From Roseivivax sp. THAF197b (GTDB lineage: Bacteria; Pseudomonadota; Alphaproteobacteria; Rhodobacterales; Rhodobacteraceae): a stretch of DNA of 64,000 nucleotides. The translations under genes and the position numbers were made by a program. Positions 26,847-54,106 of this stretch are shown here, one piece after another. The stretch is from the NCBI RefSeq assembly GCF_009363255.1, contig NZ_CP045318.1, forward strand, positions 2,655,501 through 2,719,500, written 5' to 3'. Each line of letters starts with the position of its first letter. Within the stretch, counting starts at the first letter, position 1. The notes beneath the pieces are model-generated. The model saw only the letters and a program-made list of their open reading frames with translations. It did no database searches and was not told the DNA's origin.

Positions 26847-27040
26847 TTTTTACCTCATGGCTTTCATAGGATTTGTCCCCGATGTCACCGTAGAAAATGT
26901 TACTAGTATACTGTTTTGTTTTCGTTGATCGCAACTAAAGCGATTTCTACCAGTCATTTTAAGAGGCATACACTACTTAGCACTCAGCTTTAGCCTACAA
27001 GTAAGGTAGTAGCCAAAAGTATTCGGTGGGGTATGTTCGA

Positions 27041-28015: not shown

Positions 28016-28055
28016 CCGGGCGATCCTTTTTCAGATAGCTTGCTTCTACCCAATT

Positions 28056-29590: not shown

Positions 29591-29594
29591 CAAA

Positions 29595-30692: not shown

Positions 30693-30855
30693 TCGATCGG
30701 ATGGCTTTCAAACAACGGTGACATCCCGCCCGAAAAATTCCCAAGTTAGCCCATCGAAAAGGCCACGCTTTCTGGCAATCACGCGCAAGAGCCCCGCTCC
30801 CGAAGGACAAGACCCGCCCGATGTCGCATCACTCCGCCCCCTGTTTCGCCCCCAG

Positions 30856-32844
30856 ATGAGCGGGCTGGCCACCCCGCATCTGCCCTACAGGGCCGATATC
30901 GACGGGCTACGCGCGATCGCGGTGGGGGCGGTCGTGCTTTATCATTTTGGCGTGGCGCTGCCCGGGGGCTTTACCGGGGTGGACGTGTTTTTCGTTATCT
31001 CGGGCTACCTCATCGGCGGGCTGCTCTGGGCCGAACGCGCGGCCACGGGCCGGGTGCGCCTCGGGGCCTTTTGGCAGAGGCGCTTCCGCCGCTTGGCCCC
31101 CGCCTTCTTCGCCATGACGCTGGTCACGAGCCTCGTGGCCTGGGCGCTCCTGCTGCCCTTCGAGCTACGCGAATACGGCAAGGCGCTGATCGCGGCCTCT
31201 GTCTATCTAGCGAATGTGCTCTTCTACCGCCAGGCCGGCTATTTCGACGCGGCGTCGGAGGAAAAGCCCCTCCTGCACACCTGGTCGCTCTCGGTCGAGG
31301 AGCAGTTCTATCTCTGCCTGCCGCTCTTGGTGCTGACGCTCGCCCGCCGGCCGCAGGCCTTGATATGGGCGCTGGCGGCGATCTGGGCCGCCTCGCTCGC
31401 CGCGTGCCTCTGGGTGACGCCGCGCGATCCGCAGGCCGCTTTCTACCTCTTTCCTTTCCGAGCATGGGAGCTTCTTTCGGGCGTACTTTTGGCGATCTGG
31501 ATGCGGGGACGGCCCACGCTCGGTCCCCGTTGGGCAGGCTGGACAGGCCTTGCGCTGATCGGCGCGGGACTTATCTCTATTTCTTCCGAAAAAGCCTTTC
31601 CGGGTGCCTGGGCCCTACTGCCCGTGATCGGCACGATGGGCGTGCTCTGGGCAGGGGCAGGGCGCGGTGTGGGCTCGCTTCTGCGCCATCCCGCCATGGT
31701 CTTTGTGGGGCGCATTTCCTATGCGCTCTATCTCTGGCACTGGCCCGTTCTCACCCTGTCACTGCAGCTGCGCGGGGCCTATGCGGGCTGGTGGGAGGCC
31801 GCGGCCTGGATGGCGCTGTCCGTCGCCCTCGCCTGGGCCTCCTGGGCCGCGATCGAACAGCCTGTGCGCAGAGGCCGCCTCGCGAGCCCCCGCGCGCTTC
31901 TGGGCTTTGTAATCACAGCCAGCGGCGCGGCCATGGCCTTTGGCGTCCTTGCCTATCTCAAGGACGGGGTGCCGGGGCGGTTCGGCCCCGAGGCGCGGGT
32001 TCATATCGCTGCCTCGGACGATTTCCTGCAGGATTTCAGCCGCTGCACCACACCGGAGGAGGACCCCTTCACCGGGCTCGAGATCTGCCCGCTTGGTCCG
32101 GACGGCCCGCCACAGGTGCTGGTTTGGGGCGACAGCCATCTGCGCGCCCTTTACGAGGGTCTGCGCCTTGCCGCCGAGGATACGCCAGCACTGGCCATCT
32201 GGCGCGCGGGCTGCCCGCCGCTTTTCGGCATCACAAAGTCCGAGAACAGCGCGAGCCCTGCCGAGGATGCCGCCTGCGCCGCAGCCAATGCCCGGATCGA
32301 GACCGCCATCGCCGGGATGCCCAGCCTCGCCCGCGTGCTCCTGATCGGACGATGGAATTACTACGCGTCCGGCACCGGGATCGGGCTTGATGCGGAGAAC
32401 CGCATTGCCGTGTCGCATCCGACAAGCGGCAGGACGGGCGGTCCCGCTTTGGACGCGGCAGTGACGCAGACTGTGGAGACATTCCGCACCGCCCGCTTGC
32501 CGGTCTTCGTGCTGACCCAGCCCCCCGAACAGCCCGCCTATGACAGCCGCCTTGCCGCCCAAGAAGCCGCGCATCGGGGCTGGCCGCTGGCCGCGCCGCC
32601 GGTGACCGAGACCTCCGTGAGCCGCGCCGCGCTGGGGCCGCGTGTGGCCGAGGCCCGCGCGCTCTGGTCCGGGGCGGAGGTCACGCGGCTTGATCCCTGG
32701 CCCGCGCTCTGCGATGCGGTGACCTGCTTCGCGCTCCACGATGGCGTGGTGCAGTATTTCGACACCAACCACCTTACAAATAGTGCTGCCCGTCGGCTTG
32801 CGCCGATATTGGAACCGGTCTTCCAAAATTTGCGAAGACAGTAG
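30856..32844 (+). CDS. AT3-SGNH fusion O-acetyltransferase (OafA-like)
   Basis: A 662-residue protein. Residues about 8-340 are the AT3 membrane domain (DIDGLRAIAVGAVVLYHFGV; FWQRRFRRLAPAFF; HTWSLSVEEQFYLCLPLLVL). After a linker, residues about 420-662 are an SGNH hydrolase-like domain with the nucleophile motif VWGDSHLRALYEG and the C-terminal DTNHLTN His. AT3 passes an acetyl group across the membrane and the SGNH part transfers it to a periplasmic glycan. The ATG at 30856 is chosen because the AT3 fold begins eight residues later; 66 upstream codons in the frame lack family similarity. It is the second acyltransferase in tandem but belongs to a different subfamily. Confidence 0.88.
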   Translation: MSGLATPHLPYRADIDGLRAIAVGAVVLYHFGVALPGGFTGVDVFFVISGYLIGGLLWAERAATGRVRLGAFWQRRFRRLAPAFFAMTLVTSLVAWALLLPFELREYGKALIAASVYLANVLFYRQAGYFDAASEEKPLLHTWSLSVEEQFYLCLPLLVLTLARRPQALIWALAAIWAASLAACLWVTPRDPQAAFYLFPFRAWELLSGVLLAIWMRGRPTLGPRWAGWTGLALIGAGLISISSEKAFPGAWALLPVIGTMGVLWAGAGRGVGSLLRHPAMVFVGRISYALYLWHWPVLTLSLQLRGAYAGWWEAAAWMALSVALAWASWAAIEQPVRRGRLASPRALLGFVITASGAAMAFGVLAYLKDGVPGRFGPEARVHIAASDDFLQDFSRCTTPEEDPFTGLEICPLGPDGPPQVLVWGDSHLRALYEGLRLAAEDTPALAIWRAGCPPLFGITKSENSASPAEDAACAAANARIETAIAGMPSLARVLLIGRWNYYASGTGIGLDAENRIAVSHPTSGRTGGPALDAAVTQTVETFRTARLPVFVLTQPPEQPAYDSRLAAQEAAHRGWPLAAPPVTETSVSRAALGPRVAEARALWSGAEVTRLDPWPALCDAVTCFALHDGVVQYFDTNHLTNSAARRLAPILEPVFQNLRRQ

Positions 32845-33076
32845 TCTAAGTTTGCGTAAGTGTCCCTATCCCGCCTTCAGCGAAAAAGCGTAAGTTATTG
32901 ACAAAGGATCAGTTTGAGCAGTTCCCGGTCTATTCCTACCTGTCCCCCAGGCTCTTCTGTGCACAAAGTTCTTGTGGGCGTAGCGCAACACATTCAGTTC
33001 TCAGATTTTCATTAAATATTCCTGTAGCGCATTACACACTACGGTCATTTGCTACTTGAGCCAGTAAGGACGCGGC

Positions 33077-34669
33077 GTGAAGGATATATCACTCAATCGG
33101 CCGCTCCCAGCGAGCGACGATGCTCGGATCGATGAAGCCCTAAGGCAGCTCTTTGTTCTAGCGCTCGATGCCGAGATCCTCTTCGAGGAAAAGGCCCGGC
33201 GTCTTCTACGCATAGGCTGCGAGGCTCTCAACCTCTCGTTGGGGATCATCAGTGTGGTCACCGAAGGGCGGTACGTTGTGCGCTATAGCCACGCGCTAGA
33301 AGCCGCGCCTGCTCCAGGGACAGCATTTGACCTGTCCGGCACTTATTGCGTCCACACGCTTCAGGCGGACGATGTCACCGCCTTCCATCACGTTGCCAAG
33401 TCCGAGATCCGAACCCATCCATGCTACCAGGATTTTGGTTTGGAGAGTTATATCGGCGTACCTTTGCGGGTGAACGGTCGGGTACACGGCACTCTGAACT
33501 TTTCAAGCTCTGCAGCCCTGAACCGTCCCTTCAGCGACAAAGAGTATGACCTGGCGCGCCACTTCGGCCAATGGATCTCTAAAGAATGGGAGCACTCTGA
33601 AGCCAAACGTGAGCTCGATAAGAAGACGACGCTGCTGGAAGCCATCCTCTCTGCGATGCCGGACGCCGTTGTCTTCGCGAGTCCTGAACGCGAAATCATC
33701 TCCGTGAACCCTGCTACTGAGACGATGTTCGGCTACTCCGCCTCGAACTTGACCGGTCGTCAAACCTCAGCGCTTTACTCGAGTTTAGCAGCCTACCAGG
33801 AAGCCGGAGAAAAAGCATATAACGAGTGGAAATCTGGGAAGAATGAACCGATGCTCGTCGAGTACATGCACCAGTCCGGTCGGATGATTGTCGGCGAAAC
33901 GCATTCAATTCCGATGGACGCCCATGACGGGAGCCGGATGGGTTACCTCGCAGTCATTCGGGATGCTACTCAACGCAGCAAGTTGGACGCAGAGCGCGAC
34001 AACGCGATCTCTACGGCAAGCCATGAGCTCAAGACACCCCTCACGTCCCTAAAAGGCGCCCTTCGCCTTCTGGACCTCTATGCCGCAGATCTGCCGTCTG
34101 ATGCGAAGCAGCTGCTCAAAACCGCGGCGAGGAATTCGGATCGCCTAGAAGCTCTGACAAGAGCCATTCTGGATGCGGGTAAGTTGTCCAGCCAGCAAAC
34201 CAACGTAGATCGCGAAGATGTTAGCCTCACTTTTTTGCTGAACGTATGCGCCATCGACACGAAACAGTTCGCAGCAGACAACAACGTGACAGTGAGTATT
34301 TCAAGCTTGGCCCAAATGGACTACATCGTTCACGGCGTCGAAGCCATGCTCCTGCAACTTGCGGTCAATCTAGCGACAAACGCCATCAAAGCGTCGCCAA
34401 AAGGCGGTCAGGTTGATCTTGGACTACTAGATGGCCGCTGCGGATTCTGGGTCAGGGATCGTGGAAAAGGCATCCCAGAAAAGATGAGACCCGTGCTTTA
34501 TGATCGTTTTACAAAAGCAAGCGAAAGTTCGTATCGTTTCGGCGGAGGGACCGGCCTCGGCATGAGTATCGTCAAAGCAATCGTCGACCAGCACCACGGG
34601 CATATTTCGTTTAAGAGCGAGATCGGCGCTGGGACGACTTTCTACGTTGAGTTGCCTGAAGTCGAATAG
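33077..34669 (+). CDS. Soluble GAF-PAS histidine kinase
   Basis: A 530-residue sensor kinase without membrane segments. A GAF domain occupies about 15-170 (YSHALEAAPAPGTAFDLSGT; ESYIGVPLRVNGRVHGTLNF). A PAS domain covers about 180-305 (AMPDAVVFASPEREIISVNP; ATETMFGYSASNLTG). The HisKA H-box is ISTASHELKTPLTSLKGALR, and the HATPase has N-box NLATNAIKAS, G1 VRDRGKGIP and G2 FGGGTGLGMSIV. It starts at GTG with AAGGA upstream. It is followed by a 47-residue frame and then a D54 response regulator on the same strand, the clearest kinase/regulator pairing in the island. The GAF ligand is unknown. Confidence 0.9.
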   Translation: MKDISLNRPLPASDDARIDEALRQLFVLALDAEILFEEKARRLLRIGCEALNLSLGIISVVTEGRYVVRYSHALEAAPAPGTAFDLSGTYCVHTLQADDVTAFHHVAKSEIRTHPCYQDFGLESYIGVPLRVNGRVHGTLNFSSSAALNRPFSDKEYDLARHFGQWISKEWEHSEAKRELDKKTTLLEAILSAMPDAVVFASPEREIISVNPATETMFGYSASNLTGRQTSALYSSLAAYQEAGEKAYNEWKSGKNEPMLVEYMHQSGRMIVGETHSIPMDAHDGSRMGYLAVIRDATQRSKLDAERDNAISTASHELKTPLTSLKGALRLLDLYAADLPSDAKQLLKTAARNSDRLEALTRAILDAGKLSSQQTNVDREDVSLTFLLNVCAIDTKQFAADNNVTVSISSLAQMDYIVHGVEAMLLQLAVNLATNAIKASPKGGQVDLGLLDGRCGFWVRDRGKGIPEKMRPVLYDRFTKASESSYRFGGGTGLGMSIVKAIVDQHHGHISFKSEIGAGTTFYVELPEVE

Positions 34670-34858
34670 CTTTCTCAATCTAACTAAACTTATGCAGTGA
34701 ATGCCCATCCCCAGCCGTTTTCTTTTTCAAAAAATTCTCAGATTGAATCTGATATCTACAGCCCACTTCCTGAGTCGTACGCAGATCGTTGGTATTTATA
34801 TTAGCTTCAGGCGGTCATAACCGCTCCGGCTCTATGTAGTATGCGCGGGGGAACAGCG

Positions 34859-35002
34859 ATGCGAACCCATATACTTGGTGACCGGTATCTACCGAGTCGG
34901 CAAGTCACCGCTGAAATTATGCCAGCACTCCTGAAGATTCTGACACAGATTTTCCCTGAAATTGCTTTCAAAAAGACCTCATCCTTCAGCCATGTACATT
35001 AG
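34859..35002 (+). CDS. Small hypothetical protein, 47 aa, between kinase and regulator
   Basis: An ATG at 34859 lies six bases after a GGGGGAA ribosome-binding site. It opens a 47-codon frame (MRTHILGDRYLPSRQVTAEI at the start, ending in SFSHVH) that stops 24 bases before the response regulator start. There is no membrane segment and no recognised domain; the composition has a mixed hydrophobic/basic middle. The site and spacing suggest a real small gene, possibly coupling translation to the regulator. It is too short for firm support. Confidence 0.4.
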   Translation: MRTHILGDRYLPSRQVTAEIMPALLKILTQIFPEIAFKKTSSFSHVH

Positions 35003-35026
35003 GTCGACCCTGGAGGGTGCTCGTAA

Positions 35027-36028
35027 ATGCGCATACTTGTCGTAGATGATGACCCAATATTTTTGGATTTGGTTGCAGTGAGACTCGAACAAAAAGGTCT
35101 TACCGATCTCACGCTGGCTGTGTCTTCCGAAGATGCCCTCAAGGTAATCGACGCACAGATTACGCCGTTCGACTGTATTTTACTTGATATATTGATGCTT
35201 GGAATAGATGGGATTGAGCTTTGCGCACTACTTCGGCAGAGATCAGAATATCGCGCCACGCCAATCATCATGATTACGGCAACTCAAGAAGCCGAGAGCA
35301 TGGATCGCGCATTCGACGCGGGCGCCACGGACTTCTTAAGAAAACCACTGGACGACATTGATCTGACTGGCCGCATACACATGGCAATGCTGCTTGTGGA
35401 CGCCTTACGGAATATGCAAAAAAGCCGTGAGACACTCCGAGCTGTACTCGATAACGGCTCCACCCTTGACTTGGCAGACGTATCTAAACGAATTTGCTTT
35501 CCTGATGCCGATGGGATGCTAGACTATTTCCAGTTTGAAAATAAGTTGCTTCAACTCAAAGACGGTAATTATCAGGCTACATTGTACAGAATAGATCTGA
35601 GCGAAATATGCAGAGAAAAGAAGCTTTATCAACCACAAAATACTGTCGTTTTTTTGCACAAGCTCAGCAAAGCACTTAGTAACATTAAATTCGAGAAGCC
35701 GTTCTGGTACTCCTACATAGGTGCTGGTCGTTTTATTTGCTGTGTAGTGGGTCGACTTCCCATAAATTCAACGCCTCTTCGTGAGCAGGTGGATATCGGT
35801 ATCCACAAAGCATATGAGGCAGCCGACTTTCTGCGTTTGAACGCGCCTTCGATCGCCGTAACGCCTCTTATTGAGCAGCGCGTTACTCCCAGATCGACCC
35901 TTATCGACCTTGTTCGAAATGAATACAAGTCAGCTAGTACAGCAGGTCTCCATGGCTTCCCCGAGATAAGTGTAGTTGAAGATAATATCTTCGCTCAGAT
36001 CTCTGAGTTCATAGATGCAGATTCCTGA
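35027..36028 (+). CDS. Response regulator: receiver plus degenerate GGDEF-like domain (paralogue D)
   Basis: A 333-residue member of the same family as the genes at 25887, 27041 and 42934. The receiver has Asp7-9, Asp54 in FDCILLDILMLGIDG, IIMITA and LRKPLDD. The second domain starts DYFQFENKLLQLKDGNY and carries GAGRF at the GGDEF position (SYIGAGRFICCVV), so both catalytic acids are lost. It is the only family member encoded directly behind a histidine kinase on the same strand, hence the best candidate for that kinase's substrate. Confidence 0.85.
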   Translation: MRILVVDDDPIFLDLVAVRLEQKGLTDLTLAVSSEDALKVIDAQITPFDCILLDILMLGIDGIELCALLRQRSEYRATPIIMITATQEAESMDRAFDAGATDFLRKPLDDIDLTGRIHMAMLLVDALRNMQKSRETLRAVLDNGSTLDLADVSKRICFPDADGMLDYFQFENKLLQLKDGNYQATLYRIDLSEICREKKLYQPQNTVVFLHKLSKALSNIKFEKPFWYSYIGAGRFICCVVGRLPINSTPLREQVDIGIHKAYEAADFLRLNAPSIAVTPLIEQRVTPRSTLIDLVRNEYKSASTAGLHGFPEISVVEDNIFAQISEFIDADS

Positions 36029-36219: not shown

Positions 36220-37041
36220 CTAGAGGTGCTTGGTCAGATCGTCGATCGCCGCGAGCCCGCGTAGTAGGTCCGTAAGCTTGCCGATCTCCACCATGTTCGG
36301 CCCATCGCTTGGCGCATTGTCCGGATCCTCATGCGTCTCAATGAAGACCGCGGCACAGCCCACCGCAAGGGCCGCGCGGGCCAGCGGCTCGACGAATTCG
36401 CGCTGCCCGCCCGAGGAGCTGCCCTGCCCGCCCGGCAGCTGCACCGAATGGGTAGCGTCGAAGACGACCGGGTAGCCGGTCTTGGCCATGATCGGCAGCG
36501 ACCGCATGTCCGAGACCAGCATGTTGTAGCCAAACGAGGCCCCGCGTTCGCAGAGCATCACCCGCTCATTGCCGGTCGAGGCGATCTTGGCCGCCACGTT
36601 CTCCATGTCCCAGGGCGCGAGGAACTGGCCCTTCTTGACGTTGATCGCCGCCCCCGTTTCGCCCGCGGCGAGCAACAGGTCGGTCTGGCGCGACAGGAAG
36701 GCCGGGATCTGCAGCACGTCGACCACCTCGGCCACCGGCGCGCATTGCTCCGCGCTGTGCACGTCCGTCAGGACCGGCACGCCGAATTCGGACTTGATCG
36801 CGGCAAGGATCGACAGCCCCTCCTCCATGCCGAGGCCGCGCTTGCCAGACAGCGAGGAGCGGTTGGCCTTGTCGTAGCTCGCCTTGAAGATCCAGGGGCG
36901 GCCTACCGCCTCCGCGGCGGCGGCGATCTTCTCGGCCAGCATGCGCGCGTGATCGAGGCTTTCCAATTGGCAGGGCCCCGCGATCAGGGCGAATGGGGCT
37001 GTGTTAGAGACGGTCATGTCTCCGATACGGACGTCTTTCAT
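36220..37041 (-). CDS. kdsA: 3-deoxy-8-phosphooctulonate (KDO-8-P) synthase
   Basis: A 273-residue DAHP/KDO8P synthase-fold TIM barrel. It condenses arabinose-5-phosphate with PEP. Conserved: [11 protein letters not shown] near the N-terminus, [49 protein letters not shown] and [12 protein letters not shown]. The Cys in AGPCQLES corresponds to the metal ligand of the metal-dependent (class II) enzymes, which metal-independent forms replace by Asn, so a divalent-metal enzyme is predicted. The start overlaps the kdsB stop by four bases. It is the third gene of the kdsD-kdsB-kdsA operon. Confidence 0.95.
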
Positions 37042-37829
37042 GCGATTCCTTCCTCTCGCAGCACCGCCTCGATCCGGGCGACATCGACGGGGTTGTTGAG
37101 CTCCCAGAAGACGCGGCCGCGCGCCTCGACCTCGACGCAGGTGACGGGCCAGCCGTTCTCCAGAAAGCGCAGCTGTTCGAGCCCTTCGGCGCGCTCGAGC
37201 GGGCCTTCGTCCCAGCCCCCATAGGCGCGCAGAGCGTCCGGGCGGTAAGCATAGACGCCCACATGATGCCAGACCTCGGGCGGGGTTTTCAGGCTGCCCA
37301 CATAAGGCAGCACCTCTTTCGAGAAATAGAGCGCCGAGCCATCGCCGCGCATCACCGCGGTGGTGCCGCCGACCCGGCCTTCCTTGCGGTCGGTGACGAA
37401 GTTCGTGAGCGTCTGAGGCTCGGTGCGCAGCACGGGCGTCGCCATCCGCACGGCATTTTCCCCCTGCATGCGCGCGATCAGCGCCTCGAGAAACCAAGGC
37501 GGGGTCAAGGGCGCGTCGCCCTGCAGGTTCACCACGATCTCGGGATCGACATCGAGCTGGGCGAGCCCTTCGGCGCAGCGCTCCGTGCCGTTGCGCGCGG
37601 CGGAGGAGGTCATCAGAACCTCCGCACCGAAGTCTGTCGCGGCATCGCGAATACGGTCGTCATCGGTCAGAACGCAGACGCGGGAGACGCCGGGCACGCC
37701 TTGGGCCGCCTCCCAGCTGCGCTGGATTAGAGACGCTTTGCGCCCCGTTGCCCCGGCGAGCTCCACGAGCGGCTTTCCGGGATAGCGCGTCGAGGCATAG
37801 CGTGCGGGGATGAAGACGACGGCGCTCAT
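37038..37829 (-). CDS. kdsB: CMP-KDO synthetase
   Basis: A 263-residue nucleotidyltransferase that activates KDO with CTP. It has the family start [18 protein letters not shown], followed by [36 protein letters not shown] and [13 protein letters not shown], all matching KdsB. It overlaps kdsD and kdsA by ATGA at both ends, so KDO-8-P synthesis and activation are translated together. Confidence 0.95.
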
Positions 37830-38794
37830 GCAACACCTGCACGAAGCGCGTCGTGGATATGCACGAGCCCCTTGAGCGCGCCGCCCTCGTCCACCGCGAA
37901 GAGCGCCGAGATCTTGCGGTCGTTCATGATCCCCAGGGCCTCCACCAGCAGGGCCTCGGGCGCGATGGTCGTGGGGTTGCGCGTGGCCACATCCCCCGCC
38001 CAGCGGCCCATCAGCCCGTCGAGATTGCGTCGCAGGTCGCCATCTGTGATCACACCGGTGAGCTTGCCCTCCTCCACGAGGGCCGCCACGCCGAAGCCCT
38101 TGGCGGTCATGGTCAGGAGCGTTTCGCCCATATCCGTGTCGGGCCCGACCACCGGGAGCGCGTCGCCTTGGTGCATCACCGCGGCAACGCTGAGAAGCTG
38201 CGCGCCAAGCGTGCCGCCGGGGTGGAAGGTGCGAAAGCTTTCACGATCAAAGCCCCGCGCCTCCATCAGCGCCACAGCCAGCGCATCGCCCAGGGCCATG
38301 GTCATGGTGGTCGAGGTGGTCGGCGCCATGCGCAACGCGCAGGCCTCGGGCGCGTCGGGCAGCAGGAGCACATGATCCGCCTGCCGGGCCAGCGTGGACT
38401 CAGGGTTCCGCGTGATCGCGACCATCGGCACCCGGAAGCGGCGCGTGTGGGCGATGATATCGGCAAGCTCCTTCGTCTCGCCCGAATTCGAGATCAGGAT
38501 CGCCGCATCGTCCCTGGTGATCATGCCGAGATCGCCATGGGAGGCCTCACCGGGATGGACGAATTGCGCAGGACTGCCGGTGGAGGCGAGCGTCGCTGCG
38601 ATCTTCGCGGCCACATGGCCCGACTTGCCCATGCCCGAGACCACGATGCGCCCCGGGATGGCCAGGAGACTGGCGACCACCTCCTCGATCTCGGGCGAGA
38701 TCTCCTCGGCCAGACGGGCAAGGGCTGCGCTTTCGGTCTCGAGGACCGCGCGGGCGATCCGCATGCTGGTGCTTGTTGCGTTCATAGCGGCCAT
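37826..38794 (-). CDS. kdsD: Arabinose-5-phosphate isomerase
   Basis: A 322-residue protein with an SIS sugar-isomerase domain (about 30-190: GRIVVSGMGKSGHVAAKIAA; TLASTGSPAQFVHPGEASHG; DAAILISNSGETKEL) and two C-terminal CBS domains (about 205-320, e.g. GVITDGDLRRNLDGLMG). It converts ribulose-5-phosphate to arabinose-5-phosphate, the first KDO step. GAGG lies five bases before the ATG. It is the first gene of the operon and divergent from ugd. The KDO-8-P phosphatase gene kdsC is not present here. Confidence 0.93.
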   Translation of the reverse strand: MAAMNATSTSMRIARAVLETESAALARLAEEISPEIEEVVASLLAIPGRIVVSGMGKSGHVAAKIAATLASTGSPAQFVHPGEASHGDLGMITRDDAAILISNSGETKELADIIAHTRRFRVPMVAITRNPESTLARQADHVLLLPDAPEACALRMAPTTSTTMTMALGDALAVALMEARGFDRESFRTFHPGGTLGAQLLSVAAVMHQGDALPVVGPDTDMGETLLTMTAKGFGVAALVEEGKLTGVITDGDLRRNLDGLMGRWAGDVATRNPTTIAPEALLVEALGIMNDRKISALFAVDEGGALKGLVHIHDALRAGVA

Positions 38795-40521: not shown

Positions 40522-41949
40522 TCAAGCAACCCTCGAGTCCGGCTCCGCATGCGAAAGTGGTTCTTCCTCTTCATAAAGCTCTATTGAGAAAACCGTGCCC
40601 GAGCCAAGCTTGCTTTCAAAGTCGATCGAGCCTTGATGCGCTTTCATGATCTGCTTGGATATGGTCATCCCAAGACCAGTTCCCTCGTGGGCGCGAGTCG
40701 ACGACGAGTTTATTTGCTGAAACTCCTCGAAGACTTTTTCTCGAGCCTCCTCGGGAATGCCTATACCATCATCTTTAATTGACAGCCTTACGAACGGCCC
40801 TTTGGTCATCATCGATATCGTCACGGCACCGCTCTCATTAGAAAACTTAACAGCATTCGAGAGGATGTTGACGATCACCTGATCGATGCGTTTGCTATCA
40901 AATCGCGCCCAGTTCACTCCGGCCCGAACATCAGAGATCAGCGAGATCCCCTTACGTTCGGCGTATGGACGAAAGGCCTCGATAGTCTCGCATACTGCGG
41001 CGCCAAAATCTTGAATGTCGAAATTATAGTCGATTTCACCCGCTTCCCCTTTTTGCAACAGCAGCAGGTCATCGACAAGATCAGCCAGTCGACGGCTGTT
41101 GCGAACAGCGACATCAAGAGGTCTTTTGAACTTCTCTGGAGGCTCCCCGAGCATGCCGGAGTTGACGATCTCAAGAGAGCCTTTGATTGAAGTCAGCGGC
41201 GTCCGGAGCTCGTGACTAACCGTCGATAAGAAACGCGATTTTGCCAGATACGCCGCCTTCGTCCGCTCGTGCTCATCTTCCAGTGCTTTGCGACCGACAA
41301 GATACTGACTGTAGCCGACCAAAAAGCTTCGGGCGCATTCGAATATGAAGCCAAGAACGAACAGAACCGTAAAGAAGTGAAGCCAAATGTCCGAAGACAG
41401 CGGCGGCCTGACCAGCCAAATATCTCTGAGCGGTATGAACAATATCGCGGCCGTATATATGGCGAGCCTGACCGCCAGCACACCCAAAAAGTGCCGATTG
41501 TTGATGCATGCGAAGACAGCGGCTGAAAACAAGATGAAATGCGCCAGGAAATGGCCGTCCCAAGGCCCTTGTAGGATCGCCAGAGAGATGGAGAAACCTG
41601 CAATCGCGAGCGCGCTGAGAACAGTTCCTGCATATATCTGGAGCATCGCCGTCTTGTTAGATTGCGAAGACCACCTTCGTGTTCTCAAAATCGACAAAAA
41701 TACGCGGCCATCGAACACCTCAACAAGGCCGACAAGACAGTAAAATAGGGTGGCAACGCCCCAGTCGTAATACGCACCCGCGAGCGTGATCGCGAAGGAG
41801 TATATGATAATGCGCTGTAGAAAGAGCTGTCGGCCAACCTTTGCATAATCTCGCAGGCGCCGACGTACCGACCATAGATCGGCATCTTCGCCCTGCCGAG
41901 GCAATAGTGAACTCAGAACCGCTGCTTGATGCCGGAAATGGCTAGTCAT
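40522..41949 (-). CDS. Six-TM membrane histidine kinase
   Basis: A 475-residue kinase with about six membrane segments between residues 40 and 225 (RIIIYSFAITLAGAYY; IYAGTVLSALAIAGFSISLA; LHFFTVLFVLGFIFECA among them) and no large periplasmic loop. Then come a short linker, the H-box STVSHELRTPLTSIKGSLEI and an ATPase domain (N-box VNILSNAVKFSNE, G1 IKDDGIGIP, G2 EGTGLGMTISK). Such polytopic input domains resemble those of kinases for lipophilic signals (CqsS/LuxN-like in layout, not by clear homology). It is divergent from the LuxI-type gene with 165 bases between. The ATG at 41949 is preferred; a TTG five codons upstream is possible. Confidence 0.87.
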   Translation of the reverse strand: MTSHFRHQAAVLSSLLPRQGEDADLWSVRRRLRDYAKVGRQLFLQRIIIYSFAITLAGAYYDWGVATLFYCLVGLVEVFDGRVFLSILRTRRWSSQSNKTAMLQIYAGTVLSALAIAGFSISLAILQGPWDGHFLAHFILFSAAVFACINNRHFLGVLAVRLAIYTAAILFIPLRDIWLVRPPLSSDIWLHFFTVLFVLGFIFECARSFLVGYSQYLVGRKALEDEHERTKAAYLAKSRFLSTVSHELRTPLTSIKGSLEIVNSGMLGEPPEKFKRPLDVAVRNSRRLADLVDDLLLLQKGEAGEIDYNFDIQDFGAAVCETIEAFRPYAERKGISLISDVRAGVNWARFDSKRIDQVIVNILSNAVKFSNESGAVTISMMTKGPFVRLSIKDDGIGIPEEAREKVFEEFQQINSSSTRAHEGTGLGMTISKQIMKAHQGSIDFESKLGSGTVFSIELYEEEEPLSHAEPDSRVA

Positions 41950-42114
41950 GGTGCTGCCTGTCAATGAGTATGTGCAGTCAAAAATTCTACCAGATCAAAA
42001 TTGACACAACTGAAGATTGTAGCGGGCTTGTATGGCTTCCCTTTGACGAGAAATTGACATATTCATGGCGAGACTAAGTCGAGACGTCGCAACTCATAGG
42101 TAGAGCCAAATTAT

Positions 42115-42861
42115 ATGGGACTTCAGAAATCAAGCCTCTCGGAACCACGGCGGCGCGATCTTCCCGAGTTACTACCTGCGAGCGACGCTCACGATCAGCG
42201 CCGCAAGACGACCTCTCAAAGCGACCAGGGCAACGCGCTTCAGCAAACGCTGTCTCACCTGTACCCGAAACGCCTTCGCACAGCCGAGCTGTCTATTCAT
42301 ACGCAAGCCCGGTATGGAGACCTCTACCCTGAGTTTTTAAGGGCAAGAAAGCGGGTCTTCATAGATCAAAAGGGATGGAATCTCCCAAACGTTGATGGGA
42401 TGGAGTTCGATCAGTACGACACCCCTCAGAGCGTCTCCATCGCCATCCATGATTTCGGTCAGGTGCTTGCAGGCATTCGATTACTGCCCACAACCGCTAA
42501 GTGTGGCTGCTACAGTTACATGTTGAGAGATGCCCAGCGCGGTCTGCTAACGGATATTCCCGCGCACGTTCTTTATGAGAGTGCTCCTGTAGCGGATCAC
42601 GTATGGGAAGCCACTCGTCTCTTCGTGTCATCAGACGTACCTGCCGAGCGTCGCAGTGTTGTTCAGGCGCAGCTAATGATTGAAATGGCCTCGATAGCTG
42701 TTCGCCACGGTGCCTCCCACGTCATCGGGATAGTTCCGGCTGTCTTTCGCCGGTGGATGGGAAGGCTGGGCCTCAGTGCGTTACCTCTCGGCCCCCAATT
42801 GGTTATCGATGGCGACAAAACCCAGGCTGCCGTCATGCACGTCGCAAAGTTTGCACAGTAG
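42115..42861 (+). CDS. LuxI-type N-acyl-homoserine-lactone synthase with N-terminal extension
   Basis: Residues about 60-248 carry the LuxI family invariants in order: Arg78 and Phe82 (RARKRVFIDQKGW), Trp88, Asp99 and Asp102 (MEFDQYD), Arg122 (AGIRLLPT), Glu165 and Arg168 (WEATRLFV). The enzyme joins S-adenosylmethionine to an acyl-ACP chain. The first 57 residues are a polar Ser/Gln/Arg-rich extension absent from typical 200-residue LuxI proteins; no other in-frame start is available close to the domain. No LuxR with an autoinducer domain is encoded nearby. The neighbours are a six-TM kinase (divergent) and a response regulator (convergent), which suggests kinase-based sensing. Confidence 0.85.
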   Translation: MGLQKSSLSEPRRRDLPELLPASDAHDQRRKTTSQSDQGNALQQTLSHLYPKRLRTAELSIHTQARYGDLYPEFLRARKRVFIDQKGWNLPNVDGMEFDQYDTPQSVSIAIHDFGQVLAGIRLLPTTAKCGCYSYMLRDAQRGLLTDIPAHVLYESAPVADHVWEATRLFVSSDVPAERRSVVQAQLMIEMASIAVRHGASHVIGIVPAVFRRWMGRLGLSALPLGPQLVIDGDKTQAAVMHVAKFAQ

Positions 42862-42933: not shown

Positions 42934-43869
42934 TCACCAGTCTGTCAGCTGTTCCGCCTCTGGCTTCTCACTCATTTGACGAACTGACTTTAAAGTTCGC
43001 CGCAGCCGAACGACACGCTCTGATTTGGGTACGTGCTTGGGAGGCCCTGAAGACGCTATGACAACATGCGGCCGTGCCTGTGTGTCTCGTGGTATATTTC
43101 GGAAGGCTTGGTTGATCGAGGCTCCCAGTCGCCGATGGGACAGCAGCTTGTTGGTCGCTATGACGATACTCAGTATACCATTGCCATGATGTGACATCAT
43201 GAATGGCTTATTTTGCAGGGCCCCAGCAGCGGCCTTGCCAACTTTTCCCATGACGTTCTGAAATTTTTCACGCGATAGCTGCGCATGCAAGTTCGGGGCG
43301 TTTGTTACCTTCAAGCCCAGAAAGGTCATCTGTGTGAACATCGGCAGATCCATCAACCGATAGGTCATGTCTTGTAGATTGAAGAAGTTCGAAACCCCCT
43401 TCAACGGGAATGCCTCGGACACACGTCCTTGAGCAATGTTACAAAGCTCAGAGGGAACGAGAAAGGGCTTCGACATCCTCTCATGTGGCATTAGAAGCCT
43501 ACGTACTTCCGCGAGCTCGATCCGCATGATCACTTCAGGGCCTTCGAAGGGTTTGACCACGTAATCGCTCGCGCCGGCCATGATAGCACGCTCCAAATAA
43601 TTGCGATGGTCAAGGCGTGTCACCATGATGATCGGAGTCTGATCATATTCCGGATATTCCCGGATCCTCTTGCACAGCTCGATGCCATCCATTCCTGGCA
43701 TCCGGATGTCGAGCAAGAAGCACTCGAAAGGATCCTCGGATTCCTCAAGAAGCTGCAACGCCTCCTCGCTTGAGGAGGTAAGCTCAAAATCGTTGTACGG
43801 TGAGTTCGAGAGCGCCAGACCTAGGAGGTCCAGGATGATCGGATCGTCATCAACTGCGAGGATGCGCAT
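42934..43869 (-). CDS. Response regulator: receiver plus degenerate GGDEF-like domain (paralogue E)
   Basis: A 311-residue family member. The receiver has Asp7-9, Asp54 in FECFLLDIRMPGMDG, the IIMVTRLD Thr and VVKPFEGPE. The second domain (about 150-290) has GNGIL in place of GGDEF (SHHGNGILSIVIA), the most altered of the four. The C-terminus is basic (ERVVRLRRTLKSVRQM). It converges on the LuxI-type gene with 72 bases between stops and is the regulator closest to it. Confidence 0.85.
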   Translation of the reverse strand: MRILAVDDDPIILDLLGLALSNSPYNDFELTSSSEEALQLLEESEDPFECFLLDIRMPGMDGIELCKRIREYPEYDQTPIIMVTRLDHRNYLERAIMAGASDYVVKPFEGPEVIMRIELAEVRRLLMPHERMSKPFLVPSELCNIAQGRVSEAFPLKGVSNFFNLQDMTYRLMDLPMFTQMTFLGLKVTNAPNLHAQLSREKFQNVMGKVGKAAAGALQNKPFMMSHHGNGILSIVIATNKLLSHRRLGASINQAFRNIPRDTQARPHVVIASSGPPKHVPKSERVVRLRRTLKSVRQMSEKPEAEQLTDW

Positions 43870-44253: not shown

Positions 44254-44622
44254 ATGTATAGAATACTTCATGTCGAGGATGACGATGACATTCGTGAAAT
44301 ATGTCGAATTAGCTTCGATTTCGCGGGGCTAACTGACGTCGTACAATGCCATGATGCTTTCTCGGCCCTTGAGGTATGCGACGACCATGAACCAGACCTC
44401 TTACTTCTCGACCAAATGATGCCTGGCATGAATGGGATGGAGTTGTTGGCCGAACTGCGAAAGAAGCCGGCCTACCAAGATGTTCCCGCGGTTTTCTTCT
44501 CAGCTCTGTCCCAAGAAAGCGAACGGGACGAAATGATGCGGTCCGGAGCAATCGATATCATCTCCAAGCCCTTTGACCCGATGACACTGGGGGAAAAGAT
44601 CTGGAAATTCTTCGAAACCTAG
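44254..44622 (+). CDS. Single-domain CheY-like receiver
   Basis: A 122-residue stand-alone receiver (MYRILHVEDDDDIREICRIS; phospho-Asp in PDLLLLDQMMPGMNG; PAVFFSALS; ISKPFDPM). It lacks the FDC motif of the D54 paralogues and so belongs to a different receiver branch. It has no output domain. It may act as a phosphate shuttle or sink in the kinase network around it. Confidence 0.88.
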   Translation: MYRILHVEDDDDIREICRISFDFAGLTDVVQCHDAFSALEVCDDHEPDLLLLDQMMPGMNGMELLAELRKKPAYQDVPAVFFSALSQESERDEMMRSGAIDIISKPFDPMTLGEKIWKFFET

Positions 44623-45778: not shown

Positions 45779-46583
45779 TCATAAAGAGAGTCTGCGGATT
45801 TGAGATTGGTAGTCTGGCAGGTCGTTCCGGGCAAGCGCGCCGGGCTTGGAGCCGTCAAATTGGCCAAGCGTCCGGCGGGCGTCCTCCAGTGTGTCAAAGA
45901 TCTCCTCATTCAAAAGCTCGTCGCGTAGGCTGCCGTTGAATGACTCAATGAAGGCGTTCTGCTGCGGCGTGCCGGGGTCGATGTAATGCCAGGGCGCCCC
46001 GTTATTGTCGGTCCACTTCAGGATGGCGCGGCTGGTGAACTCGGTGCCATTATATCTGACGACGCAAGCGGGCTTTCCGTAGATCCGCACCAGCGCTTCC
46101 AACTCACGGGCGACACGGGCGCCCTAGATGCTGGTGTCGGCGGTCAGGCACAAGTTCTCCCGGCAGCAATCGTCGATCACCGCCAGAATGCGGAACTTGC
46201 GCGAGGCGCCGACGAAGTCGGCCAGAAAGTTGAGCGACCAGCGGGCATTGGGATGCGCCGCCTCAGGCATCGGCGTTCGTGACCCCCGGGCTCGCTTGCG
46301 CCCGCGCCGTCGCTTCACCGACAGTCCCTTTTTTCGGTAGAGCCGATAAAGCTTCTTGTGGTTCATGAGTATGCCCTTGCGCTCGAGCAAGATACCAATC
46401 CGGCGATAATCGAACCGGCGCCGCTTCCCGGCGATCCCCTTCATCTCCTCGCGGATCTCGGTGCAGTCCTGCGGGCGTGTGCGCCGGACTGTTTTTGGAT
46501 CGACACCAAGAAGCTAGCAGGCCCGGCGCTGCGAGATATCATGATCACGCATTGCCCTGAGCGCCGCCTCTCGCCGCCCGGTC
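45779..46583 (-). pseudogene. IS3 OrfB transposase, multiply disrupted
   Basis: Identifiable blocks are RACx[81 protein letters not shown] and [20 protein letters not shown]. There are four defects. An in-frame TAG lies at 46514-46516 where Gln is usual. A second TAG lies at about 46124-46126, after TADTSI. The second catalytic Asp is changed (RYNGTEF instead of SDNGTEF). About 30 residues are missing between [10 protein letters not shown] and QFDGS, apparently by recombination between DARR-like repeats. Confidence 0.85.
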
Positions 46584-46854
46584 AATGTCGCCAGTTCTTT
46601 CCCAGCAGATCCTTCAGGACGACATTGTCGAGCATGGTGTCGGCCAGCAGGCGCTCGAGCTTGGCGTTCTCGTCTTCCAGCGCTTTCAGCCTGGCGGCCG
46701 CGGAAGCCTCCATGCCGCCATTCTTAGACTTTAGCTTGTAGAACGTCACCGGACTCGGGCCGTGCCTACGGCACACCTCCGCAGTTGGCATCCCAGCCTC
46801 CCGCTCTTTGATCATCCCGATTATCTGCGCATCGATGAAACGGCTCTTCCTCAT
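46582..46854 (-). CDS. IS3 OrfA (helix-turn-helix, leucine-zipper protein)
   Basis: A 90-residue OrfA (MRKSRFIDAQIIGMIKEREA; GMPTAEVCRRHGPSPVTFYK; a C-terminal coiled coil LKALEDENAKLERLLADTML). It is intact and normally joined to OrfB by -1 frameshifting. Because OrfB here is dead, OrfA could only act as an inhibitor or DNA-binding relic. Confidence 0.88.
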   Translation of the reverse strand: MRKSRFIDAQIIGMIKEREAGMPTAEVCRRHGPSPVTFYKLKSKNGGMEASAAARLKALEDENAKLERLLADTMLDNVVLKDLLGKNWRH

Positions 46855-47027
46855 TTGTCTGCTCCTTCACGTTTAAGCAGACACTACATCAGACTGTGGG
46901 ATGTCCGGGGGTGGGCAGGTTAAAAGGAGAACATGCTGGGTCCCCCGGGCGTTTGCAGCGAGTAAACAACGACCAAGCAGCCGGTCCTGTTACACTAGTT
47001 TCTCCACATTGCAGCAAGGAGGACGCA

Positions 47028-48533
47028 ATGCCAACTTCGGACCAGGTCCCAGACTGCGTGCCCGATGCGGCGAAAGGCAGAGTGCTCGCCTGCCCGTTTC
47101 GGGAGCAGCATCTAATCGAGGCCCTAGAGTTTCGCGAGTCTGCCTACTTTCACACCCTGCTTGTTGGGCGGCACATCGGCGTACATCGACCCGATGGGAG
47201 AATCTGCAACTGGACAGCCCGCATACTAACCACTGACAAGAGATACATTCAGAAGTGCCTGGGACCCGCACTACCGCTGGGTCGCGGTCAGGTCAGTTAC
47301 CTCCTTGCAATCGAGCGGGCGTTTGACTGGTTCGAAACCCCTGAAGTCAAATCCATCGCCCATGGAACGAGGCCCGCCGAACGCACAAAGGAGCTCTCCG
47401 TTTGCCCAATCGGGGAGACCTACACAGTAGGACATGCCTTGAAGGATTATACTGAGTGGACGCGGATCGCTCGTTCTCCGGGAGGCCACTACAACAACCT
47501 GATCCTTATGAATTATCACATCGTGCCGGACTTCTCCTCAATCCCGCTGGATGAGTTCAGCGCCAAGCATCTGGTCCGCCTCGCACGCCAAGTTCTCGAA
47601 CGACCTCCAAGGTTTGGGTTCATGGATTACTCGCGCACGGCTGATTCGCGCGAGCTTACCGTAGATGAGGTAAGGTGCAGAAAGCGCACCTTCAATTCGC
47701 TGGTGTCGATCATGCGGATGGCCTTTCAACATGCCTGGGACAATGGACAGATCGATACCGAACGCCCTTGGCGCTGCCTGAAACGCATGCCGGTGACGCA
47801 CAGTCCTCGCACAATCTTCCTCACCCGCGAGGAATGCAGACGACTTCTCACCAACTGCACGCCAGCCCTGCGGCTGCTGGTCTTGGCCGGACTCTACACT
47901 GGTTGTCGAGTGGGGGAACTCGCCAAGCTTCGGGTTGAAGATGTGGGCGATCAGGGTTTTGGCATTCGCATCGCGGCCTTCAAACGCAGCCCCGCACGAT
48001 TTGTGTTCTTGCCCGACGAAGGCATGGCCTTCTTTCTGAAGTGCTGCGAAGGCAAGGCGCGACGCGAGCCGGTGTTTACTTCAGACATGGGTTTGAACTG
48101 GCGCAAGCAGCACACGTCTCTTTTCCGCAGAGCCGTCTCAAGATCAGGGCTACCTAAAAGCTTCGTTTTCCACGGACTGCGACACACCTACGCAAGCGAC
48201 CTTGTTCGTGCTGGCGTCCCGCTAGAAGTCATCGCGAAGCAACTTGGTCACGCCAACACCATTACGGTCAGCAACACCTACGGACACTTGGCAGACCATT
48301 TTCGCGAAGACCAAATACGAACCCGCTTCACACCACTCGACCAAGCTCTGTACAACGAAGCGTTGGAGCGGAAGCAACAATTGGGTGAGCTTTGGAAAGC
48401 TGTTCAACCAGATGACTGGCGAGACTACGGAGCAATACCCAGCGTGTCTTCCCATCCTCCGCGAACCTACGTGAACACCCACAAGGACATCCTCGAAGTG
48501 TTTGGGCGAGCAGAGAAAGATGCACTCTCTTAA
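47028..48533 (+). CDS. Tyrosine recombinase / phage-type integrase
   Basis: A 501-residue integrase. The N-terminal half (about 1-290) holds a SAM-like core-binding region; the catalytic domain (about 300-470) has Arg in YTGCRVGELAKLR, His-x-x-Arg in FHGLRHTYASDL, the LGHANTITVSNTY box and the nucleophile Tyr in NTYGHL. AGGAGG lies five bases before the ATG. It lies at the left side of the mobile region, directly after the dead IS3. A tRNA-Ser marks the far side, and tRNA 3' ends are common targets for this enzyme class. Confidence 0.88.
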   Translation: MPTSDQVPDCVPDAAKGRVLACPFREQHLIEALEFRESAYFHTLLVGRHIGVHRPDGRICNWTARILTTDKRYIQKCLGPALPLGRGQVSYLLAIERAFDWFETPEVKSIAHGTRPAERTKELSVCPIGETYTVGHALKDYTEWTRIARSPGGHYNNLILMNYHIVPDFSSIPLDEFSAKHLVRLARQVLERPPRFGFMDYSRTADSRELTVDEVRCRKRTFNSLVSIMRMAFQHAWDNGQIDTERPWRCLKRMPVTHSPRTIFLTREECRRLLTNCTPALRLLVLAGLYTGCRVGELAKLRVEDVGDQGFGIRIAAFKRSPARFVFLPDEGMAFFLKCCEGKARREPVFTSDMGLNWRKQHTSLFRRAVSRSGLPKSFVFHGLRHTYASDLVRAGVPLEVIAKQLGHANTITVSNTYGHLADHFREDQIRTRFTPLDQALYNEALERKQQLGELWKAVQPDDWRDYGAIPSVSSHPPRTYVNTHKDILEVFGRAEKDALS

Positions 48534-49020
48534 TTTCAACTATTCTTTCAAATCGCAACAGATGCTGCGATCGATCCGGATTGGCTCCAAGCTTCCGTCG
48601 CTTTGTCGGCGAAACAGAGACAAAATGGCGTCCGCTTGACCTGATGCTGTGGACGGCCCCTGCGGTGCAAGAGGTTTCTGGCGGCAATACGCACCGGTCG
48701 GGTGCATCCTTGTGTCCTGCCTGTTCGCGCAGCACGACATGGCTGCTGGCCCTGATGAAGTCCGCGGATCGGGTCCCTGATCAGGTCAACGCGCTCGAAG
48801 CGCTCTGCTCCCCTGGGTTTGGCCGATCACCGGTCTGACCGGTTTGTCATCACCACTCAGCCCTCTCTCACCATCCTGTCGCCAGATTTCGGCGGTTCGG
48901 TGAACTCTATGCGGTGTACGCTTCCTTTCGTGTCATGACGGCCCACGCGATTCGAGCAGACTTGTTTGCCAAGCCGACATTCGCTACACGTACCGTCTTT
49001 TGCTCGAGCGATGCCGCCAG
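48534..49020. other. Non-coding stretch after the integrase
   Basis: 487 bases with no supportable gene. Several overlapping frames of 60-135 codons exist on both strands but have no ribosome-binding site or family signature. Confidence 0.4.
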
Positions 49021-49452
49021 TCAGGGCTGTCGGCTTAGGTCTTTACGGACCATACGAACGACAGCGGTCGCTCCGACAACCAACAATCTTCGAAGGTAGC
49101 CGTCGCCTTGTTTGCTGATGCCGCCCAAACGATCCGTGCCGCCAGAGCTGTTGGATCGCGGCGTCAGATCGAGCCAAGCTGCAAATTGTCGGCCTGATCT
49201 GAACTGGCCCGGGTCGGGAACAGCTGCGGCGATGGCGGAGGCGGTTATCGGACTGATACCGGGTATCGTGGCAAGACGACGGCTCGTTTCATCGGCCCCA
49301 TGCCAGGCAAGTATTTTCTCCTCCAGGTGATCGATCTGTCGCTGGAGTGTGTCCAACTGTGTGACAATCGGGAACAGAGCCGGTTGCGCTTCCTGCCTCG
49401 GTCCCATCATCGCCAATCCTCCCACCCATCGGTGGAATTGAATCAGCACCAT
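49021..49452 (-). pseudogene. IS110-family transposase, C-terminal fragment
   Basis: The Transposase_20 part is clear: RRLATIPGISPITASAIAAA, then DPGQFRSGRQFAAWLDLTPR, SNSSGGTDRLGGISKQGD and YLRRLLVVGATAVVR. The N-terminal DEDD catalytic half is missing and the C-terminus is cut short (VRKDLSRQP). It is a remnant inside the mobile region. The upstream 49453-49540 continuation is not similar. Confidence 0.8.
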
Positions 49453-49753
49453 AGCCCTCGATCAAGCGCGGGTTTTTCAACGGAATAAGCCCAAACCTAT
49501 CAGTAGCCTTTAGCCGCACGTCGCGGCTAAGCCACGCCAAATCAACCTTCCCAGTTCAACGCCGCGGTTGAAGCCTACGAGCGCTGTGTTGCCGCTCTGA
49601 CGGCGTGCGTGGTCGTAGCGCAGCCATAACGATTCTGTCCTATAGTACTTGCCCCATTCCCTCGAATAAATCGCTCCAGAAAACCGTGGAACCGAACAAC
49701 GAGCTGTCCATCAGAGCTGGTGCCCATGCTTTCCTTCACACATTTGCCCCCGT
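49453..49753. other. Gap between IS110 fragment and terminase gene
   Basis: 301 bases with no supported gene. They are probably residual insertion-sequence or element DNA. Confidence 0.35.
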
Positions 49754-51169
49754 TCATTCCTGCGTCCCGACCAAGGCGACCTGCCTTGGCCGCCCAAACC
49801 ACCCCAAAAACTGCGTAAGACTGTCGACCTGATCGTCATACCTTGAATTTGGAAACAGCGTGAGTTCGCGCCGGAAGTTGGCAAGCCATGGAGCCTGTGC
49901 TGGAAGCGCAATACGCCTGGCCTCGATCAAGGGAGACGCCGACATAAGACGCGTGGCTTTATCGTCCTTGGGCCGATTTCCGACGACATTCAGGCGAGAT
50001 GCTCTTCTCAGATCCTGCAGCAGATGCATTCCCGATCCAGCATCTTCGATCAGGATCAACGACGCTCGGTGGTTGGCGGCGTCGGCAGTGATGCGGCGGC
50101 GCAATTCAGGGTATTCAAGCCGCCCTCGAAAGAGATCCAGAAGCCAAGCCTCGGTTCGGCGCACCAGCCAGGTGGTGCAGACGGAATAATCATGGACCTC
50201 ATCGGCCTTCGAGGCCGTGTCCCAGGATTGAACGATCCGATCACCCGGCTGGCGTGTTGGAGGCACGTCATAGGTTGGGAACCACGACCATTTCACAAGG
50301 CCGCCATCGAGCGGCGCTGGACGCTGCTGATATTGCGCGGCGAACACGTAGGAGCCGAGATCCTGGCGATGGCGCTCCAAGACCTCCCGAGGCAGCCGTG
50401 CAGGATGCAGAAGGTGCCCCTCCGGGCGGCGCAGTGTTCCGCGACGGCCCAGGTCAATCTCCACTGGCTCCTCGGCAATGGCTTGAAGATCGAGGTGCGT
50501 CCAGCCGCCCTTGCTGAGTAACTCTCCGGCCAGATCCGCCTCATGCACCCTTTGCTGGATAAGGACGATAGACCCGTGTGCCGGGTCGTTCAGTCGGCTC
50601 AGAAGGGTTGTGCGGTACCAATCCAAGACCTGGTTGCGCTTGGCCTCGGAGGTCGCCTCCTCCGGCTTGTGCGGATCATCGAGTAGAATGATGTCCCCAC
50701 CCCGCCCCGTCACCGTTCCTCCGATCGAGGTCGAGAACCTCCCCCCGCCCCTGGTGGTCTCAAAATCGGCGCGGCCGCCGCGCCCGCGCGCGATCCGCGT
50801 CGCCGGGAAGCACTGACGATACCACGGTGCCTCCATTACCTTCAGGCAATCGAGCGCCAGCTTTTCTGAGAGGCCTTCCGCATATGAGACAGCCAGGATG
50901 CGCGCGCGTGGATCATTGCCTAACAGCCATGCTGGGAAGGCCACCGACGCCGCGATGGACTTCATGGACCGCGGCGGCATCGTGATGATGAGCCGCGTGA
51001 TCTCTCCGCGCGCCACCTGGTTGAGGCGATAGGCGATCGCATCGATATGCCAGTTGTGATGATAGGCGTTGCCCGGTGCCACCACCCCAAATGCGCGCTG
51101 GATGAAGGAAGACAAATCCGCTCGTAGAACTGCGTTTAACAGCGTGACGGGATCAATTGCTTGGGGCAT
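49754..51169 (-). CDS. Phage terminase large subunit
   Basis: A 471-residue packaging motor protein. ATPase: Walker A-like TMPPRSMKS, Walker B IILLDDPHKP and the coupling region SIVLIQQRVHEADLAGELLS. RNase-H-like nuclease: QSWDTASKADEVHDY, LILIEDAGSG and RYDDQVDSLTQFLGW. I start at the ATG at 51169 (GGGAG nine bases upstream); it overlaps the DUF5681 gene by 17 bases. No portal, protease, capsid or tail gene follows, so this is an isolated packaging gene. Confidence 0.9.
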   Translation of the reverse strand: MPQAIDPVTLLNAVLRADLSSFIQRAFGVVAPGNAYHHNWHIDAIAYRLNQVARGEITRLIITMPPRSMKSIAASVAFPAWLLGNDPRARILAVSYAEGLSEKLALDCLKVMEAPWYRQCFPATRIARGRGGRADFETTRGGGRFSTSIGGTVTGRGGDIILLDDPHKPEEATSEAKRNQVLDWYRTTLLSRLNDPAHGSIVLIQQRVHEADLAGELLSKGGWTHLDLQAIAEEPVEIDLGRRGTLRRPEGHLLHPARLPREVLERHRQDLGSYVFAAQYQQRPAPLDGGLVKWSWFPTYDVPPTRQPGDRIVQSWDTASKADEVHDYSVCTTWLVRRTEAWLLDLFRGRLEYPELRRRITADAANHRASLILIEDAGSGMHLLQDLRRASRLNVVGNRPKDDKATRLMSASPLIEARRIALPAQAPWLANFRRELTLFPNSRYDDQVDSLTQFLGWFGRPRQVALVGTQE

Positions 51170-54104: not shown

Positions 54105-54106
54105 CC

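Follow-up and report, generated by a model that had tools for sequence, protein, structure and literature searches.

It is a common assumption that AHLs made by LuxI-type synthases are perceived within the cell by LuxR. In the LuxM/LuxN and AinS/AinR systems of vibrios, a polytopic membrane kinase encoded beside the synthase serves as the AHL receptor, and receptors of the LuxN type are hybrid kinases with a receiver domain of their own.

For roseobacters, the passages of Cude & Buchan (2013; PMC3824088) considered here describe orphan luxI genes that have a kinase upstream of them (topologies H, I and J) and propose a LuxN-like two-component relay; the identity of the kinases to LuxN is modest, 26% or less. 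In Ruegeria sp. KLH11, according to the part of the paper at hand, a solo synthase works inside a network with LuxR regulators (PMC3907830). We saw no experimental follow-up of the orphan luxI-kinase pair in the portion of the open literature covered, which lies outside bioRxiv and most subscription journals.

Here, we describe such a locus from Roseivivax sp. THAF197b (genome size 4.24 Mb). It lies in a stretch of 64,000 nucleotides (NZ_CP045318.1, positions 2,655,501 to 2,719,500), which was analysed as a whole and is called the window in the following. A first-pass annotation of the window had suggested that an AHL is read at this locus by a phosphorelay and not by LuxR. This idea is not new, because a LuxN-like relay was already in print for roseobacters (PMC3824088, passages considered here). 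The suggestion is strengthened by the present analysis, but it is supported only in part. The new part is that one sensor family is attached to two different LuxI-fold synthases.

The locus has the orphan LuxI and the upstream kinase in common with topologies H-J, and in J the kinase is opposite in direction (PMC3824088, same passages). Roseovarius nubinhibens ISM, a strain included in that paper, stands there under topology I with a kinase in the same direction, whereas in the corresponding locus of our set (L188) this kinase is divergent from LuxI. Relative to those passages the sensor domain, the regulator, the genome-wide exclusivity of LuxR and FeeM are additions.

The luxI-kinase locus

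The features of the locus are as follows (positions are those of the window).

40522-41964, minus strand: six-TM sensor histidine kinase, HisKA and HATPase_c (ORF, Pfam, AlphaFold2 model)
41275..41883, minus strand: sensor region of the kinase, residues 28-230, without a Pfam family (Pfam, alignment, model)
41965..42114, no strand: divergent intergenic region between kinase and luxI (sequence)
42115-42861, plus strand: LuxI-family acyl-homoserine-lactone synthase (248-aa ORF, PF00765)
42934-43869, minus strand: response regulator with receiver (D54) and degenerate GGDEF-like domain, candidate partner of the kinase (Pfam, model)
44254-44622, plus strand: single-domain receiver protein of 122 aa, candidate relay partner (ORF, Pfam)

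Open reading frames and domains confirm the layout given in the first-pass annotation, a LuxI-type synthase divergent from a kinase and convergent with a D54 regulator. That this layout goes beyond chance follows from a tally across 394 genomes (see below).

The synthase belongs to PF00765 by profile (E 7.5e-16, 58.6 bits, cut-off 24). R78, F82, W88, D99, D102, R122, E165 and R168 align with solved synthases (LasI, 3p2f); we take these eight positions to be the invariants of the LuxI family, and the match bears out the family residues that had been ascribed to the gene at 42115. Its N terminus is about 50 residues longer than in the solved synthases, and this extension is kept in the closest relatives. 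A canonical LuxI-LuxR pair has LuxR beside LuxI, but neither the open reading frames nor a profile search gave a LuxR gene next to the luxI of the window; with a kinase upstream and no adjacent luxR, the gene falls under the roseobacter orphan topologies H-J. The annotated absence of LuxR thus holds for the locus, and the LuxR genes of this genome lie outside the window: one at C1:285610, just upstream of a second LuxI at C1:286432, and one without LuxI at C1:1801571.

The intergenic region between kinase and luxI contains the 9-base direct repeat AAATTGACA at 41998 and 42051, and no consensus promoter was found in it. An alignment of six kinase/LuxI intergenic regions revealed no conserved palindrome, and CtrA site patterns matched none of them (0/6).

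The Pfam domains of the kinase are HisKA and HATPase_c only. It has no receiver domain of its own, and its N-terminal part matched no Pfam family at E 0.1. Thus, the locus is like LuxM/LuxN and AinS/AinR in that synthase and membrane kinase are neighbours, but it differs from them in that the synthase is LuxI-type and the kinase is not a hybrid of the LuxN kind. The AlphaFold2 model of the kinase (mean pLDDT 82.9, pTM 0.51) has membrane-length helices at approximately 48-65, 68-94, 100-132, 139-155, 160-185 and 192 onward, which are read, together with hydropathy, as six predicted membrane passes before HisKA. Model and hydropathy therefore support the polytopic kinase with six membrane helices that had been annotated. 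The listed start is a TTG, giving 480 aa; the database copy has 475 aa and begins at an ATG five codons in, at 41949, which is more likely the true start.

Sensor residues such as R51, E82, D85, H138, N155-N156, R166, Y170, D181, W194 and Y218 are each kept in at least 94% of 36 LuxI-linked relatives; N155-N156 and H138 are less kept in 17 kinases unlinked to LuxI. A PDB sequence search with the sensor gave no match. Foldseek and VIA-align yielded no structural relative of it among the matches listed, which were kinase cores, so that the sensor was barely probed by them, and among the 25 of 88 NCBIfam matches listed only the kinase core was covered. When the class was searched with the sensor, at most seven candidates being scored per genome, 3/385 genomes matched; two belong to the own family and one matched via the kinase part only. 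This suggests that the sensor is confined to its own bacterial family.

Linkage of the kinase to LuxI and FeeM

Among 101 genomes (the host and 100 relatives), kinase and LuxI are adjacent, besides in the host, in G052, G005, G004, G017 and G039 (divergent) and in G013 (same strand); in G058 and G014 the kinase has no LuxI neighbour. The pair is unevenly distributed in the genus (host and 2/8 congeners). A search of 394 genomes of the family with the sensor alone (residues 25-235) revealed 52 kinases in 49 genomes. Judged by the LuxI matches listed, LuxI is at most 6 kb away from 34 of them, FeeM is at most 2 kb away from 7, and 11 are near neither; three of the latter are found at the ends of contigs or on a short one (G437:C79, G207:C152, G260:C162). 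A PF00765 search of the kinase genomes except G260 added, beside kinases and above the cut-off, only the FeeM-type genes of G014 and G283. The 34 kinase-LuxI pairs are divergent in 18 cases, on the same strand in 15 and opposite-downstream in one; since several orientations are kept, the pair is not one frozen block. The survey of homologous loci thus found the pairing of synthase and kinase conserved (34/52) and not poorly kept.

Named genomes added at least 17 sensor loci among the best 80, after three duplicates had been dropped. The combined set has at least 67 kinases, 45 with LuxI, 11 with FeeM and 11 with neither. For seven of the 11 kinases that lack both synthases (L130, L133, L140 and L145 left out), ten ORFs beside the kinase were inspected, and none of them was a candidate synthase.

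The surroundings of LuxI and kinase genes, about 3.7-20 kb in each case, were searched with own profiles for LuxI, LuxR, the sensor, the kinase core and the receiver; 73 LuxI loci were covered in this way. LuxR matched in none of the 36 with the sensor-kinase (0/36); the other 37 have no sensor-kinase (0/37), and in all of them LuxR stands beside LuxI (37/37). These 37 are the second LuxI of the host and selected strong and weak matches, a part of the LuxI genes of 173 genomes. They resemble topology B, and their LuxI proteins are related to the kinase-linked ones, mostly about 42-56% identical. LuxR without such a kinase is their arrangement, and the locus of the window is the reverse. At L086:8930-10438 and L130:3700-5045, two sensor-kinases without LuxI do have LuxR-type genes next to them, one and two respectively, which might reflect cross-talk or a different arrangement.

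Elsewhere in the genome, LuxR is not missing. Each genome with a LuxI-linked kinase has at least one LuxR away from the pair (36/36), so that no genome had the pair and no LuxR at all (0/36). In G005, G017, G152 and G397 the sole LuxI match is the kinase-linked one, yet LuxR is present.

Co-divergence was determined for 35 genomes; G135 was left out because its RpoB match is a fragment at the end of a contig, and short RpoB pieces had to serve in five cases. LuxI and sensor distances correlate with r = 0.744, or 0.738 with RpoB partialled out (0/1000 permutations as high), the value for LuxI and RpoB being 0.137. Tight linkage alone would lift the correlation of LuxI with the sensor; specificity is indicated only by the amount by which the sensor exceeds the catalytic half of the kinase. 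With RpoB and the catalytic half partialled out, the value for LuxI and sensor is 0.515 (0/1000 permutations as high); LuxI and catalytic half, given RpoB and sensor, give 0.153 (13/1000). The control, RpoB against sensor given the catalytic half, gave 0.073 (213/1000). In 20 draws that used only 100 random sensor columns each, the correlation averaged 0.697, compared with 0.637 for the whole catalytic half, and the correlation for 45 pairs without RpoB has the same pattern. The kinase-LuxI unit is inherited jointly, with little dependence on the species tree, and it is the sensing half that LuxI follows most closely. A signal and its receptor would be expected to behave in this way; linkage and rate effects also play a part, and the excess of the sensor could be enlarged by differing rates of change. 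In the LuxI tree, the root of which lies on long branches, eight kinase-linked LuxI proteins group with LuxR-linked ones, and their kinases all fall within one clade of nine. Therefore, the type of partner has changed within the LuxI family.

The fold of FeeM is similar to that of LuxI. Six loci with the kinase (L086, L135, L136, L139, L195, L199) match PF21926 (FeeM, N-acyl amino acid synthase) with E 1e-33 to 1e-40, and the FeeM-type genes match PF00765 weakly. A FeeM profile from five loci found a FeeM-type gene within two genes of the kinase in 11/22 distinct kinase loci without LuxI and in 0/45 LuxI-linked ones. A search of the 394 genomes with the FeeM of L195, a locus of Roseovarius atlanticus, gave 7 matches at E <= 1e-8, all beside the sensor-kinase (7/7); being a search with one query, it covers the close relatives of this FeeM. 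A methyltransferase accompanies FeeM in 11/11 loci. It is of the class I SAM type in eight (L086, L136, L137, L138, L195, L197, L198, L199) and of the phospholipid/isoprenylcysteine-carboxyl (PEMT/ICMT) type in three (L088, L135, L139). At L136:8053-9642 methyltransferase and FeeM-type synthase form one 529-aa frame beside the sensor-kinase, and this fusion speaks for one pathway.

In the kinase tree, made by a quick method with SH-aLRT as the only support and a midpoint root, the FeeM-linked kinases form two separate starred clades (8 and 3) nested among LuxI-linked ones; the LuxI label changes 11 times on this tree, compared with a shuffled mean of 18.7. From this nesting the LuxI linkage looks older, and it would have been replaced by FeeM at least twice, with two unrelated methyltransferases.

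NAME lipids, N-acyl amino acid methyl esters, are known from Roseovarius, of which R. tolerans EL-164 is a producing strain, and from Loktanella, and they were inactive on LuxR-type receptors in reporter assays, according to the part of PMC6296433 at hand; the part of PMC11580390 at hand has no candidate synthase gene for them as of 2024. The FeeM-type genes described here lie outside the window and are linked to the same sensor-kinase, and NAMEs are their likely products. In the portion of the open literature covered, again outside bioRxiv and most subscription journals, we recognised no paper that ties FeeM to a histidine kinase.

A probable sensor for the product of its neighbour

Since the sensor follows two LuxI-fold lipid synthases, it is best read as a receptor for their products. 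On balance, we favour the explanation that the locus is a synthase-receptor pair, in which the AHL from LuxI would be read by the six-helix sensor kinase and then by a phosphorelay. LuxI, going by its family, is predicted to use SAM and an acyl donor for the synthesis of a diffusible AHL. This lipophilic signal would reach the inner membrane, where the divergent kinase would bind it with its six-helix sensor, and binding may alter the kinase or phosphatase activity at H251. The phosphate could then move to receivers such as the neighbouring D54 regulator. The kinase would stand where related LuxI genes have LuxR as their neighbour. Of the annotated claim that the AHL is read by a phosphorelay and not by LuxR, the first half gains from adjacency, the mutual exclusion of kinase and LuxR at LuxI loci, co-divergence and the swap for FeeM; the second half is weakened by the LuxR genes elsewhere in 36/36 genomes.

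These genes are the basis of a different explanation: an unlinked LuxR, in the host perhaps that at C1:1801571, reads the AHL, and the kinase does no more than control the synthase from upstream or co-regulate it. The solo synthase of Ruegeria sp. KLH11 within a LuxR network is a precedent (PMC3907830, part at hand). However, such a scheme leaves the pairing of the same kinase with FeeM unexplained, the NAMEs, as the likely products of FeeM, being inactive on LuxR-type receptors in reporter assays (PMC6296433, part at hand), and it does not explain why the co-divergence of LuxI is stronger with the sensor than with the kinase core. We regard it as unlikely. The kinase could also sense another cue, such as membrane state, redox or a nutrient, with its regulators gating the transcription of the divergent synthase. 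This would suit the 18/34 pairs that are divergent and a sensor that has no family hinting at a ligand, but it does not suit the 16/34 that are not divergent, a modelled regulator without a recognisable DNA-binding domain, or the stronger co-divergence with the sensor than with the catalytic half; we judge it quite improbable. One might also think of the genes as mere passengers of one mobile segment that have no functional link, because transposase and phage genes start about 3 kb from luxI and the pair is patchy within the genus. The survey already disfavours this, since 34 pairs across 394 family genomes are kept in several orientations and another LuxI-fold synthase often stands in where LuxI is missing, and we consider it very improbable indeed.

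Returning to the synthase-receptor pair, the same sensor family, being associated with FeeM and a methyltransferase in other genomes, would comprise receptors for N-acyl amino-acid-derived lipids in general. It is tempting to go one step further, albeit with somewhat less than even confidence, and to regard the six-TM kinases of roseobacters as such a receptor family with swappable LuxI-fold synthases, in which AHLs are read without LuxR and NAMEs are quorum signals. If the kinase indeed holds the place of LuxR, a very common Gram-negative signal would have a second reading route in a major marine group, and LuxI genes without LuxR would not always be orphans. The FeeM variant provides concrete candidate genes for the making and sensing of NAMEs, by which an open question of chemical ecology becomes testable.

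The response regulator and the surroundings of the locus

The convergent neighbour of luxI is indeed a D54 response regulator, as annotated: its receiver matches with E 7e-27, and D54 is accompanied by D7, D8, T84 and K106. The best 15 Foldseek matches of its model are REC-GGDEF entries over both domains (E 1e-11 or better), but over the whole chain these give TM 0.34-0.38 and rmsd 15-24, that is, the domains are placed differently. The GGDEF-like assignment comes from this fold match and not from Pfam; PF00990 has no match in the window regulator, and one weak sub-threshold match to Pfam GGDEF was seen among the seven relatives and regulators scanned. In its predicted REC and GGDEF fold the regulator is like the diguanylate cyclases WspR, DgcR and PleD. 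However, REC-GGDEF cyclases have GG(D/E)EF where the window regulator has GNGIL, and the motif is absent from all regulators of the window type within 4 kb of sensor-kinases (0/57). Neither Pfam nor the model revealed a DNA-binding domain in the window regulator.

A regulator of this type lies within 4 kb in 33/45 LuxI-linked, 2/11 FeeM-linked and 4/11 other kinase loci collected. The partner of the kinase is therefore not fixed. The adjacent regulator is a candidate partner in the suggested relay, which would then lead to a degenerate GGDEF-like output and not to a recognisable DNA-binding domain. With such a fold, the regulator probably acts by contacting other proteins or by binding nucleotides.

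The locus has five further receiver or kinase genes at a distance of at most 20 kb (25887-36028), namely three receivers at 25887-28565, a GAF-PAS kinase at 33077 and a receiver protein at 35027. The regulators at 25887, 27041 and 35027 share one layout, RR1. Similar receiver/kinase clusters occur at some LuxI-kinase loci of relatives (L084, L151, L188).

A mobile segment adjoins the locus at 45779-55801. It contains transposase pieces, presumably IS3-like, a tyrosine integrase, an IS110-type transposase, a terminase, a DNA methylase and a serine recombinase. A large RTX-repeat protein with a C-terminal Hint domain is encoded at 60304-63246. On the other side, just past the kinase, KDO biosynthesis genes, which we take to encode KdsA, KdsB and a KpsF/KdsD-like isomerase, adjoin a UDP-glucose dehydrogenase gene (36220-38794).
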